From IMG/VR virus record IMGVR_UViG_3300024265_000026, positions 1 to 37,847 of that record: a stretch of 37,847 bases of DNA; one strand, given 5' to 3'. Both the position numbers and the translations under genes were made by a program. A model generated the notes under the pieces. That model did no database searches, had not been told where the DNA came from, and was given only the letters and a program-made list of their open reading frames with translations. Numbering within the stretch: the stretch's first letter is position 1; the number at the start of each line of letters is the position of its first letter. The stretch is from a virus. Shown here piece after piece: positions 1 to 37,847 of the stretch.

Positions 1-127
1 CGTCTAAGGGTGGGCTTTATTGAGATGATAGTTTCATTTTCACAATATTTTTATTATACTTAAGACATGTTTACACAGAATAGTCATGTATATCGTAAAA
101 ATGATCTCAGATATAGAGGTCAAACTA
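1..127. repeat. Terminal direct repeat, copy 1 (contig circularity)
   Basis: Bases 1-127 are identical to 37721-37847. A repeat of exactly 127 bases at both contig ends is what a de Bruijn assembler leaves on a circular or circularly permuted molecule. It is best read as an assembly overlap, although a genuine short terminal repeat cannot be excluded without reads. The unique genome is then 37,720 bp. Confidence 0.95.
32..60 (+). promoter_or_regulatory. Candidate sigma70-like promoter at the start of the packaging region
   Basis: TTTCAT (32-37), a 17-base spacer and TATACT (55-60) resemble a sigma70 promoter with a poor -35 box. It sits just downstream of the structured element that ends at 37737 (equivalent to position 17) and upstream of the packaging genes. 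It is inferred from sequence only. Confidence 0.4.
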
Positions 128-24553: not shown

Positions 24554-24850
24554 ATGAATGAATTTAAGCAATGTAAATCCTGTCTTGAAATAAAAAACGT
24601 CTCAGAATTTTATAAAGGCACGCATAATGCAGACGGTCTTCAAGGTTGGTGCAAAGCTTGCGATAAAGGCAACCATCGTGCTCCCAACACTACTACAAAA
24701 AAAGAAAAGTGGTGTGTCGCGTGCGGTCTTGTAAAGCCTGTTTCTGAATACTATACAATTAAAAGGAGATATGACGGTCTGGATTCACGTTGCAAAACCT
24801 GTAAGAAGTCACACCGAAAAAAACTACGTAAAGCGAGGAGTTTAAAATGA
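24554..24850 (+). CDS. Tandem zinc-ribbon protein
   Basis: A 98-residue protein made of two copies of one module. The first is C7-x2-C10 ... D27-G-L ... C33-x2-C36 and the second C54-x2-C57 ... D74-G-L ... C80-x2-C83, with V-S-E-F-Y matching V-S-E-Y-Y. The same module forms the N-terminus of the HNH-like proteins at 33946 and 34886, but no HNH domain follows here. The basic C-terminus suggests nucleic-acid binding. It may be a duplicated, nuclease-less derivative, perhaps a regulator. Confidence 0.75.
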   Translation: MNEFKQCKSCLEIKNVSEFYKGTHNADGLQGWCKACDKGNHRAPNTTTKKEKWCVACGLVKPVSEYYTIKRRYDGLDSRCKTCKKSHRKKLRKARSLK

Positions 24851-28028: not shown

Positions 28029-28598
28029 ATGCCAGATACAAAAGTAGAAACAATTTATGAGACAATTTTAAAAGTTAGGGATGATGTAGCGGGGTCTATC
28101 GATAAAGATGGTAAAAACGAGCACCACAATTATAACTACGCTACTCATAATAATATTGTGCATCATGTGCGGGATGCTTGTAAAAAACACAAACTTTTAA
28201 TCATACCTATGGGTTTAACCGATGCTTTTTATGCAAAAAGTGATACTGTTGTTTCTGGGAATTTTCGTTATTCATTAGTTAATAAAGACGGGGATCAAAC
28301 GCAGGCTATTATATTTGCTGCTGGATACGACAGTTTGGATAAACATGCTTATAAATTAGACACAGGAGCGCTTAAATACCTGCATATCCAATTATTTATG
28401 CTTGCTACTGATCTCGATCCAGAAAATCCGAAACATGAAACGAAACATGAAACGAAACAGCCGACAGAAGCCGACCCACTAGAGAGAATACAAAACTGCG
28501 GAACCACAGAAGAATTAAATAAATTATGGGCTGTGTATCCTAAATGGCACGATACTCACAAAGATGCATTTAGTAAACGTAAACTGGAATTATCATGA
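28029..28598 (+). CDS. erf: ERF-family single-strand annealing protein
   Basis: A 189-residue recombinase of the ERF superfamily (phage P22 Erf), which anneals complementary single strands for recombination-dependent replication and genome circularisation. Family features: H-N-Y-N-Y-A-T-H-N-N-I near 33-43, G-D-Q-T-Q-A near 86-91, D-K-H-A-Y-K-L-D-T-G-A-L-K-Y near 103-116, then D-L-D-P-E. A short K-H-E-T repeat forms the linker to a C-terminal helical domain. AAGGAG precedes the ATG; an ATGA overlap couples it to the exonuclease. Confidence 0.88.
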   Translation: MPDTKVETIYETILKVRDDVAGSIDKDGKNEHHNYNYATHNNIVHHVRDACKKHKLLIIPMGLTDAFYAKSDTVVSGNFRYSLVNKDGDQTQAIIFAAGYDSLDKHAYKLDTGALKYLHIQLFMLATDLDPENPKHETKHETKQPTEADPLERIQNCGTTEELNKLWAVYPKWHDTHKDAFSKRKLELS

Positions 28599-29656: not shown

Positions 29657-29848
29657 ATGCTTCCTATGTACCAACAAAATAAATTAATTGATTATTTCGA
29701 CAGTTTGGTTGATGCTGAAACCTGGATAAGCGAATTTGGCGCAGGTGTTTTCTATTTATATACCTACATTCCTTACAATTGGGGATGGGAAGGCAGAAAA
29801 CACAGGCATCCTTTAGGCAAACTTATAGCAATTTTGAGGTGTAAATGA
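29657..29848 (+). CDS. Small hypothetical protein
   Basis: A 63-residue protein rich in Tyr, Trp and Gly with a basic end (G-R-K-H-R-H). A TTG at 29651 nearer to the GAGG site would add two residues. It ends in an overlap with the ninG start. The same GAGGTGTAAA sequence precedes both this gene and ninG. Confidence 0.55.
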   Translation: MLPMYQQNKLIDYFDSLVDAETWISEFGAGVFYLYTYIPYNWGWEGRKHRHPLGKLIAILRCK

Positions 29849-30351
29849 AAAGAAAAAAAGGGCAAAGATATAAATCATTAGCTGATTATAAACTTAGCGA
29901 TTTAGCCAGTATTCTTTGGGAAATATTTAGTTTATATACTCGCTTGAGGTTCGCTGATTTTGAAGGAAAAGTTAAATGTTATACCTGTATAAGCGAAGGT
30001 CATTTTAGATCGTTAGACGCTGGCCATATGATCCCTAGAGCATTTTTACGAGTTAAGTTTTCAGAATGGAATGTTCACCCTCAGTGTATGAAATGTAACA
30101 AAGGACTTGGAGGGAATAGAGACCAATATGAAAAAAATGTCGAGCGTGATTACGGCAGCGATGTCTTAAAAATGCTAAAAAATGCTGGGTCGGATACAAC
30201 GACTTTCAAACTTGAGAGATCATGGTACATCAAACAGATACTTTTCTACCTACAAGCACTTAGAGAACTTCCAAATTATGAACTAGACGAGAATAAATTA
30301 GAAACTCGTCACAAGATATTCATTGCTCATTTATACAAAGAGGCAGCATGA
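29845..30351 (+). CDS. ninG: NinG/Rap-like recombination protein
   Basis: A 168-residue protein of the lambda NinG (Rap) family, a structure-specific nuclease that processes recombination intermediates. Two zinc knuckles C45-Y-T-C48 and C81-M-K-C84-N flank the conserved D-A-G-H61-M-I-P-R, and G-L-G-G-N-R-D-Q-Y follows (87-95). N-terminal basic segment. GAGG precedes the ATG. Its presence next to the ERF and RecE-like genes completes a lambda-type recombination set. Confidence 0.85.
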   Translation: MKRKKGQRYKSLADYKLSDLASILWEIFSLYTRLRFADFEGKVKCYTCISEGHFRSLDAGHMIPRAFLRVKFSEWNVHPQCMKCNKGLGGNRDQYEKNVERDYGSDVLKMLKNAGSDTTTFKLERSWYIKQILFYLQALRELPNYELDENKLETRHKIFIAHLYKEAA

Positions 30352-30907: not shown

Positions 30908-31348
30908 ATGAAAGAAAGCGGATTTTTTGGAATTGGTTGTTTGAATATGAAAAACACTTTGAACTATGGCACGTTGTTTAGAACTGCTCAATTATTTAAT
31001 GCTGACTTTATATTTTTGATTGGGAAACGATTTAAAAAACAAAGCAGCGATACGATGAAAAGCTATAAACATATGCCATTATTTGAATTTAAGAATTTCA
31101 AAGATTTCAAAGATCATATGCCTTATTCATGCCCTCTTGTTGGAATAGAAATGACAGAATCGGCGACACCGATTAATAAATATAAACACCCGAAACAGGC
31201 TTGTTACTTATTAGGAGCTGAAGATAACGGATTAACAAATGAAGCCATAAATTCATGTAGAGACATCATAAGCTTACCCACCAAAAGAAGTTTAAACGTG
31301 TCCGTGGCGGGTAGTATTGTACTGTTCGATAGATTAAATAAAGGATAG
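30908..31348 (+). CDS. SpoU/TrmH-family (SPOUT) RNA methyltransferase
   Basis: A 146-residue protein with all core SPOUT motifs: N19-Y-G-T-L-F-R25-T (motif 1), L101-L-G-A-E105-D-N-G-L (motif 2, SAM knot) and L123-P-T, then S128-L-N-V-S132-V-A (motif 3). The family 2'-O-methylates ribose in tRNA or rRNA. The size is like the minimal TrmL type, which modifies the wobble base of leucine tRNAs, but the target here is unknown. It sits in the recombination region without a convincing ribosome site. A phage-borne copy is unusual. Confidence 0.88.
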   Translation: MKESGFFGIGCLNMKNTLNYGTLFRTAQLFNADFIFLIGKRFKKQSSDTMKSYKHMPLFEFKNFKDFKDHMPYSCPLVGIEMTESATPINKYKHPKQACYLLGAEDNGLTNEAINSCRDIISLPTKRSLNVSVAGSIVLFDRLNKG

Positions 31349-33701: not shown

Positions 33702-33949
33702 CAACAGAGAATGAAGTTTATAATCTTGTGCAAACATATGTTAAACGAAAATATTTTATCAGTACAGCCCATCGCAAGGCTTCAACACTAGAAGAAATGT
33801 GGTATTTCGAAACAATTGTCTGGGAATGGGAGCATGAAAAAAGAAAAGTAGGCAAAATGTTAGATTCTATGGATTCAGGCTCTATCGAAGAAGCAGCTTT
33901 GGTAAATCATTTTGAAGAAGTCAAAAAATATGCAGGTGAGGTTTTATGA
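33698..33949 (+). CDS. Hypothetical helical protein
   Basis: An 83-residue protein with a Trp-rich middle (M-W-Y-F-E-T-I-V-W-E-W-E-H), otherwise charged and helical. It is ATGA-coupled on both sides, to the small gene upstream and the HNH-like gene downstream. Both it and the HNH-like gene begin with M-T-T-E. Confidence 0.62.
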   Translation: MTTENEVYNLVQTYVKRKYFISTAHRKASTLEEMWYFETIVWEWEHEKRKVGKMLDSMDSGSIEEAALVNHFEEVKKYAGEVL

Positions 33950-34512
33950 CAACAGAACAGATAGAAGCTAAGATAAAAGAATGTTCAAAATGCAAAAAAG
34001 TAAAGCCTTTAGACCGTTTCAATAAGCGAAAATCTACAAAAGATGGTTTGGGGAGTTGGTGCAAAGAATGTATTAAAGAATATTACCTGGAGAATTCACA
34101 ACATCTTAAGGACTATGCTAGAAAATATCGAACGGAAAATTTACAACATATAAAGGAACACATTAAAAAGTATAACAGAACAAGCGCGGGTAAGGCCACA
34201 GTTAAGAAGGAGCGATTAAATTTTATTGGGAGATACCCCGAAAAGGCAAAATGTACAGCTTTATGGGTTTACTTTAAAACAAAAAACGGTGTAAAAGTGC
34301 CTAGTGGTTATGAATTTCATCACTATTCTTATAAAGAAGAACACCACCATGATGTAATTTTCTTGCCAAAATGGTTGCACAAACAAATACATCGCAGAAT
34401 TGCATATTCGCAAGAGAACAAATGTTACAAATCGAATAACGGCGTTCTATTGGACACCAAAGAAAAACATATGTTCTTTATCCAAAAATTAATACACGCA
34501 GCTAAGGCTTGA
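33946..34512 (+). CDS. Zinc-ribbon HNH-like protein, family copy 2
   Basis: A 188-residue protein with an N-terminal zinc ribbon (C13-x2-C16 ... D33-G-L ... C39-x2-C42), a basic helical linker (about 50-100) and a C-terminal HNH-like domain: G-Y-E-F-H125-H126-Y-S-Y, L-P-K-W-L-H145-K-Q-I-H149, then G-V-L-L-D-T-K-E-K-H. The C-terminal half closely matches the 27547 protein, and the ribbon matches the modules at 24554. Probably a DNA-nicking or homing-type nuclease; the Asn of the classic HNH is not conserved here. Confidence 0.8.
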   Translation: MTTEQIEAKIKECSKCKKVKPLDRFNKRKSTKDGLGSWCKECIKEYYLENSQHLKDYARKYRTENLQHIKEHIKKYNRTSAGKATVKKERLNFIGRYPEKAKCTALWVYFKTKNGVKVPSGYEFHHYSYKEEHHHDVIFLPKWLHKQIHRRIAYSQENKCYKSNNGVLLDTKEKHMFFIQKLIHAAKA

Positions 34513-34885: not shown

Positions 34886-35383
34886 ATGATAGAATTTAAA
34901 AAATGTTCTAGTTGCAGAGCTGAAAAACCTTTGGATGATTTCCACAACTATAAAAATTCTAAAGACGGGAAAGTGCATAGATGCAAGGATTGCGCTAGGG
35001 CTGGCTCGCTTAAATGCATGAGGAGAAAAAAGGGCACTAGGGACAAAGGGTTGGCTATTAAAGCTGTAAGAAAATACATGGCTAAAAGGCCAGAAATTCC
35101 CAAAGCAAGTTCAATCTGGTATGAATATAAAATAGCAAATAAAATAGAACTACCATCAGGCCATCACGCTCATCATTGGTCATATAATAAACCAAAAGAT
35201 GTTATAGTTCTGTCCCTGGCTAATCATAGGAAAATTCATTGCTATTTGGGTTATGACCCCGAAACAAAATTATTCAAAATTAAAGAAAACGGTGAATTGT
35301 TAAACACAAAAGAAAAGCATATGGATTTCATAAAATCAATTCTAGTGAGATCCGTAAGCTCAGTTGAATCTATAAAGGAATAA
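34886..35383 (+). CDS. Zinc-ribbon HNH-like protein, family copy 3
   Basis: A 165-residue protein: zinc ribbon C7-x2-C10 ... D27-G ... C33-x2-C36, basic linker, then H93-H94-A-H96-H97-W-S-Y, N113-H114-R-K-I-H118 and L-N-T-K-E-K-H-M-D-F-I. Here the N-H-x3-H retains the Asn of a classic HNH motif, unlike copies 1 and 2, so this one is the most likely active nuclease. The C-terminal seven residues (S-V-E-S-I-K-E) are encoded by a 22-bp repeat found again at the end of another gene (35872). Confidence 0.8.
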   Translation: MIEFKKCSSCRAEKPLDDFHNYKNSKDGKVHRCKDCARAGSLKCMRRKKGTRDKGLAIKAVRKYMAKRPEIPKASSIWYEYKIANKIELPSGHHAHHWSYNKPKDVIVLSLANHRKIHCYLGYDPETKLFKIKENGELLNTKEKHMDFIKSILVRSVSSVESIKE

Positions 35384-35389: not shown

Positions 35390-35578
35390 ATGACTACTTT
35401 CGATTGTCCAAAATGTAATCATAAACAGACCAGATATGGAAATTGTGAAGAATGCGGCTGGTATGTAGGCAATAGAAATAAGAAGAAATCAGAGCCGGTG
35501 CATGGTCATTATAATCCAGAATTAGAGAATTTTGAAATAAGCTGTAATAAAATAGTATTTGATAGGAGAGAACATTGA
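35390..35578 (+). CDS. Zinc-ribbon protein
   Basis: A 62-residue protein with C6-P-K-C9 and C18-E-E-C21-G-W, a compact zinc ribbon, followed by a hydrophilic tail with another Cys. AAAGGAAT lies upstream, inside the 22-bp repeat. Its stop lies in the flank of the first structured-RNA element. Confidence 0.65.
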   Translation: MTTFDCPKCNHKQTRYGNCEECGWYVGNRNKKKSEPVHGHYNPELENFEISCNKIVFDRREH

Positions 35579-35688
35579 ATTTAGCACATCTATGTACCCG
35601 ATTAGCTATAGTTTACTAGTTACGCTATTAGTGAATACCACTTTAAGGGTGGCTATCAGACTCGGAACCTGTGGGTGTGCTATATTGA
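35575..35688 (+). ncRNA. Candidate structured RNA element, copy 1
   Basis: Closed by TAGCACA (35582-35588) and TGTGCTA (35676-35682), flanked by TTGAATT (35575-35581) and TATTGAG (35683 onward overlaps). Inside are: P2, GATTAGC/GCTATC (35600-35606 with 35652-35657, one bulge); P3, ATAG/CTAT (35608-35611 with 35625-35628); the linker GTGAA (35631-35635); and P4, CCAC/GTGG (35638-35641 with 35649-35652). The same order of helices, the GTGAA linker, the TCTA after P1 and the GGG before P1' recur at 37641-37737 with different stem sequences. It lies in the only sizeable gap of this gene chain. Function unknown; it does not fold as a tRNA. Confidence 0.55.
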
Positions 35689-35707
35689 GTGTTTAAAGGG
35701 AGAGTAA

Positions 35708-35872
35708 ATGAAGTTTGTTATTAAAAAAGAATTAATGTGCGGTGAATGGCATTGGATGATATATACACATCATTATTTATTCGGTGACAAATTTTTTGAA
35801 AGATGGAATAACTTAGAATCTGCGGCAATAAGACTGAAAGAATTGAATTCCGTTGAATCTATAAAGGAATAA
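35708..35872 (+). CDS. Small hypothetical protein
   Basis: A 54-residue protein with Trp, His and Tyr in the first half (C-G-E-W-H-W-M-I-Y-T-H-H-Y). It ends in the same S-V-E-S-I-K-E as the HNH-like protein at 34886 because of the 22-bp repeat. GGGAGAG precedes the ATG. First gene downstream of the structured element. Confidence 0.58.
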   Translation: MKFVIKKELMCGEWHWMIYTHHYLFGDKFFERWNNLESAAIRLKELNSVESIKE

Positions 35873-35873
35873 A
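35852..35873 (+). repeat. 22-bp gene-end direct repeat, copy 2
   Basis: Identical to 35363-35384. The 489-bp unit between copies holds a zinc-ribbon gene, the structured element and a small gene. Confidence 0.9.
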
Positions 35874-35874
35874 G

Positions 35875-36072
35875 GTGAAAACAGAAATAAAATCATCCTA
35901 CTACTTATCAAAAAAACTGACTAGAGTTGAAGCTAAACTATTTAAGCTTAATCAATTAATAGAAGAACAAATCAAAGAAAACAAAAAATGGCGCGATTAC
36001 TACAAAGGCTCAAAAGATTTAGGGCGAAGAAGCACGAAAAACCAAAACAGCTACATACCATGTTGCACTTAG
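35875..36072 (+). CDS. Coiled-coil protein, apparently frameshifted
   Basis: GTG start at 35875 with AAAGGA upstream; read as is, 65 residues with a helical N-terminal part (L-T-R-V-E-A-K-L-F-K-L-N-Q-L-I). After L49 the frame degrades into R/S/T/N/C and stops at 36070-36072. Moving one base forward at GGG (36022-36024) opens a frame to TGA 36134-36136. Its product is helical (H-V-A-L-R-L-Y-D-A-Y-L, L-E-Q-L-K-S-E-L-E), and its stop makes the ATGA overlap with the next gene usual in this genome. The intact protein would be about 86 residues. Confidence 0.55.
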   Translation: MKTEIKSSYYLSKKLTRVEAKLFKLNQLIEEQIKENKKWRDYYKGSKDLGRRSTKNQNSYIPCCT

Positions 36073-36136
36073 ATTATACGACGCATATTTAAAAGTAATT
36101 CATGATCTTGAACAATTAAAATCGGAGCTAGAATGA
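36023..36136 (+). other. Downstream +1 frame of the coiled-coil gene
   Basis: An open frame without its own start, continuing the coiled-coil character of the gene at 35875 and ending in an ATGA junction with 36133. It could result from a one-base insertion (assembly error or true mutation) or from +1 frameshifting. No classical +1 site is evident. Confidence 0.5.
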
Positions 36137-36441
36137 ACATAAAAGAGAAATGGCAGGATTTATTAGAACATATGGATGATGACTCAGCTAATTGCGACGC
36201 TGAAATAAAAGCTTATATGAGAGAATTCCTAACCGACCTAGCTACTATAGATAAAGAGCATGAAGAAGAAATGGCTAACGAAGTTTTAGGGAAAGCGATG
36301 GAATTTGATCGGACTATGTGGAAAGCTAACCTGCTCACATGGATAGAAGAGAATAAAGATGCAATGCAATATCCATCTGGACAATATAAAGACTATGTGC
36401 ATGTTGATGATCTAATAAACTATATAAAGAGGGATAAATGA
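36133..36441 (+). CDS. Hypothetical acidic helical protein
   Basis: A 102-residue acidic, helical protein (M-D-D-D-S-A-N-C-D-A-E near 14-24, D-K-E-H-E-E-E near 40-46). Overlaps both neighbours by 4 bases (ATGA). Its last codons belong to a 27-bp repeat found again at 36604. No family is recognised. Confidence 0.65.
   Translation: MNIKEKWQDLLEHMDDDSANCDAEIKAYMREFLTDLATIDKEHEEEMANEVLGKAMEFDRTMWKANLLTWIEENKDAMQYPSGQYKDYVHVDDLINYIKRDK
36415..36441 (+). repeat. 27-bp gene-junction repeat, copy 1
   Basis: Matches 36604-36630 with one mismatch. It covers the 3' end of one gene, the AGAGGG ribosome site and the start of the next. Confidence 0.85.
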
Positions 36442-36599
36442 GGATAGCAGGAAGCCCAAAAGATAAATTAATCTGTAAACTACTAGGGCATAACATATAT
36501 ATGGTGTACCAAGCGGTTAAGCCTGTGTATACGATCAAAACATTGCATAGATGCTCTCGCTGCAATTATGAAAGTGTGGAGACTCACTACACAAAATAG
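36438..36599 (+). CDS. DUF1660-like zinc-binding phage protein
   Basis: A 53-residue protein with I-C13-K-L-L-G-H18 and H-R-C39-S-R-C42-N-Y-E, the typical C-K-L-x-G-H ... C-x2-C zinc site of the DUF1660 family of phage proteins. Function unknown. AGAGGG precedes the ATG and the start overlaps the upstream stop. Confidence 0.7.
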   Translation: MRIAGSPKDKLICKLLGHNIYMVYQAVKPVYTIKTLHRCSRCNYESVETHYTK

Positions 36600-36603
36600 G
36601 GCG

Positions 36604-36630
36604 ATAAACTATATAAAGAAGGATAAATGA
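36604..36630 (+). repeat. 27-bp gene-junction repeat, copy 2
   Basis: Differs from 36415-36441 at one position (GAGGG versus GAAGG). Here it is intergenic and supplies the ribosome site for the gene at 36632, suggesting it was copied with its old gene end. Confidence 0.85.
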
Positions 36631-36631
36631 A

Positions 36632-36820
36632 ATGAGCTACAAACTAAGTGTTGAAATTACATTAGAGGAAATGCCCGAATCAACAACAGCAAAAGAATCA
36701 AGAGACTACGGTAAAACCTTAATGAAATTCGATGTTAACTATAAAAACAAAGACTACGAAGCGCTAAAGAAATCATTTTTGCATTTAGTGGGTGAGTCTG
36801 ATGGTACAGAAACTGGCTGA
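36632..36820 (+). CDS. Hypothetical protein
   Basis: A 62-residue acidic protein with an N-terminal strand (K-L-S-V-E-I-T-L-E-E) and a C-terminal helix. AAGGAT lies upstream in the repeated junction. No family is recognised. Confidence 0.6.
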   Translation: MSYKLSVEITLEEMPESTTAKESRDYGKTLMKFDVNYKNKDYEALKKSFLHLVGESDGTETG

Positions 36821-36838
36821 CTGAATAAAGGATAAGTA

Positions 36839-37063
36839 ATGAAGGAAATCATCGAATTTAAATATATACCTCAGGAACCAGATAAAAGATTTGTACTTAA
36901 AAAATATATACTTGATGATGAAAGCCAACTCATTGGCTCATTTGATGAACTGGCGGGTGTACTAGAGAATTTAAGAAACAATTTCTTTTACAAATCTGAC
37001 GGTTATTCAGTTTATGATAGAATTGAAGGAAAATATCTTTATTTAGAAGGAGAACCAGATTGA
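36839..37063 (+). CDS. Hypothetical protein
   Basis: A 74-residue acidic protein: beta hairpin (I-I-E-F-K-Y-I, then R-F-V-L-K-K-Y) and a helix (D-E-L-A-G-V-L-E-N-L-R), ending in strands. AAAGGAT precedes the ATG. No family is recognised. Confidence 0.62.
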   Translation: MKEIIEFKYIPQEPDKRFVLKKYILDDESQLIGSFDELAGVLENLRNNFFYKSDGYSVYDRIEGKYLYLEGEPD

Positions 37064-37107
37064 ATATTAATAAATTAATTAAAGCTTTTGGATTAGAGGA
37101 AGAATGA
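37060..37107 (+). CDS. Possible 15-residue microprotein
   Basis: TTG 37060 overlaps the upstream stop (TTGA), has AAGGAG at good distance, and the 15-codon frame ends in an ATGA overlap with the next gene. The start/stop coupling supports translation; the peptide may only serve to pass ribosomes on. Confidence 0.35.
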   Translation: MNINKLIKAFGLEEE

Positions 37108-37313
37108 AAATACACTGGAAACATTGGTACCACCCAATACTGAGCGAAAACGGCAAAAACAGCTTAAACGGCAAATATATTTACGAATTCTTAAACAAAA
37201 CGACCCCAAGAAATAAAACACTGTATATAAGGCAAGCCGAATATGATCCTGGCATCGATGATTCTATAAGAAATATCCATTGTAAAAGTATAACTAATTA
37301 TATGGGGTGGTAA
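37104..37313 (+). CDS. Hypothetical basic protein
   Basis: A 69-residue protein with an aromatic N-terminus (H-W-K-H-W-Y-H) and basic middle. GAGGAAG upstream, ATGA-coupled start. No family is recognised. Confidence 0.6.
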   Translation: MKIHWKHWYHPILSENGKNSLNGKYIYEFLNKTTPRNKTLYIRQAEYDPGIDDSIRNIHCKSITNYMGW

Positions 37314-37628
37314 ATGAATTATAAAAAAGAAGTATTAAAGTATTACCCAGATGCAAGAGTTAGAACTAGAGAAATTGATAAGTATACAGATGACCGTTAT
37401 GACGTTGACGTAGGCTCTTTAAGTTTATCATCACTTGAAGTAAACGAAGATCAAGCTTGGGAAGCTGCATATGAGGCTATCAAACCCCTTAAACAAACAT
37501 GTATTCTTAAAGAGGAGTTAAAAGAAATATTTGATAAATACTTTACAAAAGAAAATGCTAAAAAAATAGTAGCCGAAGCTTTTAAAAAAGCAAAGATTGA
37601 AATAAAAAAAGATAATACATTTGAGTAG
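37314..37628 (+). CDS. Hypothetical protein, last gene of the chain
   Basis: A 104-residue protein with an N-terminal K-E-V-L-K-Y-Y-P-D-A-R segment common in small phage proteins, an acidic middle (about 25-55) and a Lys-rich C-terminal helix. It starts directly after the upstream stop. It is followed after 5 bases by the second structured element. Confidence 0.65.
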   Translation: MNYKKEVLKYYPDARVRTREIDKYTDDRYDVDVGSLSLSSLEVNEDQAWEAAYEAIKPLKQTCILKEELKEIFDKYFTKENAKKIVAEAFKKAKIEIKKDNTFE

Positions 37629-37633
37629 GTCAT

Positions 37634-37743
37634 TTGAATTAAGCCCATCTAAGCCGCTTTTGCTTAGAAGCAGAGTTAACTATGCGTGAAGCCTGAAAAG
37701 GTATAAGCAACATTGTAAGCCGTCTAAGGGTGGGCTTTATTGA
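37634..37743 (+). ncRNA. Candidate structured RNA element, copy 2
   Basis: P1 AAGCCCA (37641-37647) pairs with TGGGCTT (37731-37737), with the same outer flanks as copy 1 (TTGAATT before, TATTGAG after). Internal helices: P2 TTGCTTA/TAAGCAA (37660-37666 with 37704-37710), P3 GCA/TGC (37670-37672 with 37683-37685), linker GTGAA (37686-37690) and P4 CCT/AGG with a GAAA tetraloop (37692-37701). Arm sequences differ from copy 1 but remain paired. It lies at the genome junction, upstream of the packaging genes. Confidence 0.55.
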
Positions 37744-37847
37744 GATGATAGTTTCATTTTCACAATATTTTTATTATACTTAAGACATGTTTACACAGAA
37801 TAGTCATGTATATCGTAAAAATGATCTCAGATATAGAGGTCAAACTA
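37721..37847. repeat. Terminal direct repeat, copy 2
   Basis: Identical to bases 1-127. It holds the 3' end of the second structured-RNA element (37641-37737), the promoter-like sequence and the 5' end of the first small gene. Joining the ends therefore restores one continuous region. Confidence 0.95.

Follow-up and report, generated by a model that had tools for sequence, protein, structure and literature searches.

The window analysed here, the whole 37,847-nt stretch of IMG/VR record IMGVR_UViG_3300024265_000026, is a phage genome that encodes a terminase, a major head protein, an ERF annealing protein, an exonuclease, an SSB and NinG, with every gene of recognised function carried on the + strand. 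Its opening 127 bases recur exactly at its end (1-127 = 37721-37847). Since assemblers often work with words of 127 nt, this repeat probably reflects circularity or circular permutation of the record and not true 127-bp terminal repeats. Two related hairpins, which we call E1 and E2, lie at stop codons within the same-strand gene array (Table 1). E1 begins within the last codons of the gene upstream of it, such that the stop codon TGA (35576-35578) sits inside the 5' arm; 13 nt separate the end of E1 from the start codon at 35708. E2 follows the stop codon TAG (37626-37628) of its own upstream gene without a gap; in the circular genome, the first ORF of at least 80 aa that follows it starts at window position 255 and precedes the terminase large subunit gene.

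Table 1. Features of the two hairpins, their neighbouring genes and selected phage genes, in window coordinates
Feature	Position	Strand	Remarks
E1, complete hairpin	35570..35694	+	22-rung conserved helix plus branched head
E1 5' arm, GAACATTGAATTTAGCACATCT	35570..35591	+	pairing extends to 35594 in E1
E1 head	35592..35672	+	A plus 80 nt
E1 3' arm, GGGTGTGCTATATTGAGTGTTT	35673..35694	+	
E2, complete hairpin	37629..37749	+	spans the arbitrary point at which the circular record was cut; 37721-37749 is the same as window 1-29
E2 5' arm, GTCATTTGAATTAAGCCCATCT	37629..37650	+	
E2 head	37651..37727	+	A plus 76 nt
E2 3' arm, GGGTGGGCTTTATTGAGATGAT	37728..37749	+	
Gene upstream of E1, 62 aa	35390..35578	+	cysteine-rich; resembles a zinc ribbon by eye; no family assigned with confidence
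Gene downstream of E1, 54 aa	35708..35872	+	
Gene upstream of E2, 104 aa	37314..37628	+	no confident family
ERF	28029-28598	+	
NinG	29845-30351	+	
Terminase large subunit gene	starts 689		

Hardly any relatives of this phage lineage are known. Searches with the portal, terminase, 54-aa protein and capsid recover a single relative among 2.9 million viral contigs, L022, a 6.8 kb piece that is 73-79% identical in DNA to the window over the longer aligned stretches. L022 begins just past the place of E2 and is therefore uninformative on E2 conservation. It does encode a homologue of the 54-aa protein (L022 6051-6224), in another neighbourhood and with a different C-terminus; there is no element upstream of this homologue, and thus E1 is not tied to the 54-aa gene. 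L022 also carries tRNA-Leu(TAG) and tRNA-Ser(TGA) after its terminase gene (2333-2491, - strand); no tRNA is detected in the window.

Several other features of the genome were recorded along the way. Direct repeats of 25-27 bp (96%), each made up of a gene end and a ribosome site, occur as two pairs, at 35360-35384/35849-35873 and 36415-36441/36604-36630; the first, a 25-bp repeat, encloses gene 35390, E1 and gene 35708, and the second brackets gene 36438. Both pairs resemble the boundaries of cassettes exchanged by homologous recombination, and the repeats, together with the differing C-terminus in L022, suggest that gene 35390, E1 and gene 35708 may have entered as a cassette by this route. 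Three + strand genes (24554-24850, 33946-34512 and 34886-35383) have a cysteine-rich module in common that matches endonuclease VII/HNH-like families, with the module apparently present twice in the gene at 24554-24850. A gene at 30908-31348 (+) encodes a SpoU/TrmH-family RNA 2'-O-methyltransferase (Pfam E 5.8e-23), relatives of which occur in 4 of 50,697 phage records. Finally, AATATCTTTTT occurs five times, always on the + strand and ahead of genes (2262, 5202, 7992, 23575 and 26868), several copies being followed by TATAAT-like hexamers; 0.8 copies are expected, none of 100 shuffles reaches five, and the motif is also present in L022. It resembles a promoter or activator motif of a phage-specific kind.

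We find that E1 and E2 are closed by a common stem of 22 rungs, 20 of which are standard pairs in each copy, and that all 20 are kept in both. A preliminary description of this DNA had recognised two elements flanked by TTGAATT and TATTGAG, with TCTA after the first arm and GGG before the last, and this pattern is indeed present at 35575 and 37634, with none expected in shuffled sequence. The supposed flanks are, however, part of the helix, which continues outwards for a further 5 bp, formed by GAACA/TGTTT in E1 (35570-35574/35690-35694) and by the almost wholly unlike GTCAT/ATGAT in E2 (37629-37633/37745-37749). The closing arms inside them pair in both copies, as described, but the statement that they "differ completely" does not hold: five of seven positions are identical between TAGCACA and AAGCCCA, and TAGCACA/TGTGCTA differs from AAGCCCA/TGGGCTT by two pairs, both compensated. 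Over the entire stem, rungs 2-5, 13 and 17 differ between E1 and E2, each having changed on both sides from one Watson-Crick pair to another, giving six double-compensated changes with none one-sided and none broken. Six further rungs are of the same non-Watson-Crick type in the two elements (G.U at 1, U.G at 6, G.G at 8, U.U at 12, and U.G at 20 and 22), with Watson-Crick pairs at all others. When the partner arm is slid by 1-3 columns, only 38-47% remains paired, with at most one double change. This compensatory evidence comes from two copies in one genome, and one control of the compensated-pair count (5/500) is weak by design with two sequences.

Folding of the two elements leads to the same stem. 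With more flanking sequence included, RNAfold returns an identical outer notation for E1 and E2, i.e., 7 pairs, a 1x1 mismatch, 3 pairs, a second 1x1 mismatch and at least 10 pairs, and pairing probabilities in the stem range from 0.77 to 1.0. An outer run of at least five pairs is present in E1 and in E2, although such runs are found at just 0.95% of genome positions. A residual-fold scan of the whole 37.7 kb genome, in 5804 segments of 130 nt covering both strands, places E1 at rank 1 (z = -4.86) and E2 at rank 3 (z = -3.50), and folding relative to shuffled sequence is better on the + strand. The wobbles distinguish the strands as well, with 20 pairs formed in the sense RNA vs 16 in the antisense RNA, since four G.U wobbles turn into A.C; the wobbles fit + strand RNA only. 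Selection on RNA structure, as originally proposed, is thus supported, and in the stem with greater strength than that proposal had seen, by six compensated pairs, sense-fixed G.U wobbles and top-ranking folds, and we consider it very probable that E1 and E2 function as + strand RNA structures. Neither cruciform DNA nor a packaging role, both raised at the same time, finds any support here.

The heads present a different picture, as their 80 and 76 nt show no significant likeness in sequence. A common three-helix head had been proposed for the two elements, but joint alignment and folding yields z ≈ 0.8, a value matched by 22-24 of 100 shuffled pairs. The inner helices on which that proposal was built have pairing probabilities of 0-0.12 in E1 and of 0.62-0.98 in E2, and so are plausible in E2 alone. 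For E2, the predicted helices are GCTT/AAGC and TTGCTTA/TAAGCAA, with the hairpins GCA..TGC and CCT-GAAA-AGG (pairing probabilities of about 0.6-0.98); among the helices examined in the E1 head, CCGA/TCGG is the only one well supported by pairing probability, and it is placed comparably to GCTT/AAGC of E2. GTGAA lies 40 nt from the closing arm in each element, as noted before, but this is a weak coincidence: an in-register word of at least 5 is found in 5.9% of shuffles, and overall identity over the 3' 45 nt of the heads is at chance level. A search of the phage genome for guide-like complementarity to the heads finds a longest antisense match of 9-10 nt, vs ≈10.6 nt in shuffles.

Neither element matches any family in Rfam 15, whether at the gathering threshold or at E<=10, and ARAGORN finds no tRNA or tmRNA in the window, in agreement with the initial impression that the fold is neither a tRNA nor a familiar ribozyme or riboswitch. 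A covariance-model search for homologues, suggested at the outset, can be run on the stem but recovers just the two copies in the window; beyond their mirrored minus-strand selves, the next matches in the window score <10 bits. No third copy was found in the window, in L022, or in viral contigs, bacterial and archaeal genomes, phages and plasmids (plasmids with the E1 query only). Pattern scans of viral contigs and genome contigs, using the flanks plus arms or a single arm, return chance matches that do not pair, blastn against phages (E1 and E2) and plasmids (E1) returns nothing beyond one 22-nt chance match at the query edge, and L022 and the other fetched loci contain no convincing element. 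As a kind, a phage intergenic structured mRNA element is already known; as a family reaching beyond this phage, if there is one, the RNA is apparently undescribed as far as these searches extend.

What might such a stem do? In mRNA, a helix of some two turns that has fixed mismatches and lies where genes of a long same-strand array adjoin resembles the processing and stability signals that are recognised by double-strand-specific proteins, and our favoured reading, with a probability of roughly 40%, is that E1 and E2 are RNase III-like signals of this type. They would be paralogous cis-acting elements of a polycistronic phage message, in which the helix, ≈two turns of A-form RNA, may be the target of a double-strand-specific protein, with a host RNase III-type ribonuclease the likeliest candidate and an RNA-binding protein of the phage the alternative. 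This protein would cut or protect the message at E1 and E2, with the stem mismatches setting where, or whether, one strand gets cut. The genes either side of E1 could in this way acquire separate transcript ends and stabilities, as could, across E2, the small-gene block (35.7-37.6 kb) and the terminase and structural genes. Against RNase III, the strong sequence conservation of the arms exceeds what a generic double-strand nuclease needs.

The early mRNA of phage T7 is cut by RNase III at five sites (PMC4858673). Like E1 and E2, the T7 sites (R0.3, R0.5, R1, R1.1 and R1.3) are multiple intergenic sense-strand hairpins within one genome, and in both systems a common stem sequence and mismatches in a ≈20 bp helix are combined with outer stems that differ. 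When we folded the T7 sites, several intergenic hairpins had the common stem AAGG..../....CCTT with differing outer stems; for sites other than R1.1, this common motif and the fold were the sole check on the positions used. The T7-type arrangement, an intergenic sense-strand helix of at least ≈20 bp with internal mismatches, is also what we find here, as 22 rungs with 20 pairs and two 1x1 mismatches. T7 sites are, in contrast, ≈50-60 nt long with short loops, whereas E1 and E2 measure ≈125 nt and have heads of 76-80 nt that differ in sequence. No sequence relation is claimed, and the likeness would be one in the way of working, not of membership.

A second cis-acting possibility, which we regard as unlikely, is that E1 and E2 promote antitermination or antipausing, in that the nascent hairpin binds RNA polymerase and allows readthrough of terminators into the next genes. 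The lambdoid phage HK022 encodes two such put RNAs with mutual sequence similarity, each ≈70 nt, folded into two stem-loops and located downstream of an early promoter (PMC9378689). As with putL and putR, there are two related structured RNAs per phage on the transcribed strand; E2, with the small-gene block on one side and the terminase genes on the other, would be suitably placed for this role, and the phage has the lambdoid-type recombination genes ERF and NinG. Unlike put, E1 and E2 are each one closing hairpin of ≈125 nt, placed inside a gene array or where it ends, and the + strand has few terminator-like sites. A leader riboswitch or protein-binding attenuator acting on the next gene is less probable still. 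The short distance from E1 to the start codon at 35708 is compatible with a leader, and the head could be an aptamer, but the two heads are unlike, E2 does not directly precede a clear gene (the next ORF of at least 80 aa being that at 255), the L022 homologue of the gene downstream of E1 has no element, and Rfam yields no match. An RNA that is excised and acts in trans, as a decoy or binder of a host protein or RNA with the heads conferring specificity on a common scaffold stem, is about as doubtful as the put-like reading; a conserved stem with wholly differing heads is as expected of a scaffold with exchangeable payload, but the heads are no more complementary to the phage genome than shuffled sequence is, and neither a promoter nor a terminator belonging to the elements is apparent. 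The more specific proposal that the constant 22-rung stem with its fixed mismatches is a protein-docking scaffold for interchangeable heads, which would make this a new class of phage RNA directed in trans at a host factor or defence, we consider a long shot.

Least probable of all is a DNA element, whether protein-bound inverted repeats or a hairpin for recombination or packaging, of the kind proposed for extended start-associated sequences (ESAS) or analogous to integron attC sites. The inverted arms with a variable centre are what such an element would have, and E2 lies ≈230 nt before the ORF at 255, ahead of the terminase large subunit gene in the circular genome. ESAS of cluster K mycobacteriophages are likewise imperfect 17-bp inverted repeats, present repeatedly and with a variable centre, located between small phage genes (PMC3203893). 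Their authors set RNA hairpins aside as the arm differences generally do not support pairing (PMC3203893), whereas all six differences here are compensated in RNA; in addition, the ESAS spacers are mostly 4-13 bp, compared to a centre of ≈80 nt in E1 and E2. The six rungs at which the arms break Watson-Crick symmetry are shared by the two copies, which fits pairing in the sense RNA, and in a DNA palindrome mutational correction would be expected to clear mismatches, not to hold them in place. On reading by eye, neither the ESAS start-associated 13-mer GGGATAGGAGCCC near E1 or E2 nor an attC core pair RYYYAAC/GTTRRRY in E2 was seen, and a scan of proteins from part of the ORFs revealed no recombinase. 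The integron-like and cruciform readings were set aside on the fixed wobbles and the lack of a recombinase among these proteins.

E1 and E2 thus provide a clear case in which paired changes within one genome indicate selection for RNA structure, and the contrast between a fixed stem and unrelated heads is both unusual and directly testable. Should the favoured reading as processing sites be correct, T7-like transcript cutting would have an example in an unrelated group of phages; if the heads prove functional, the elements would define a new RNA class.
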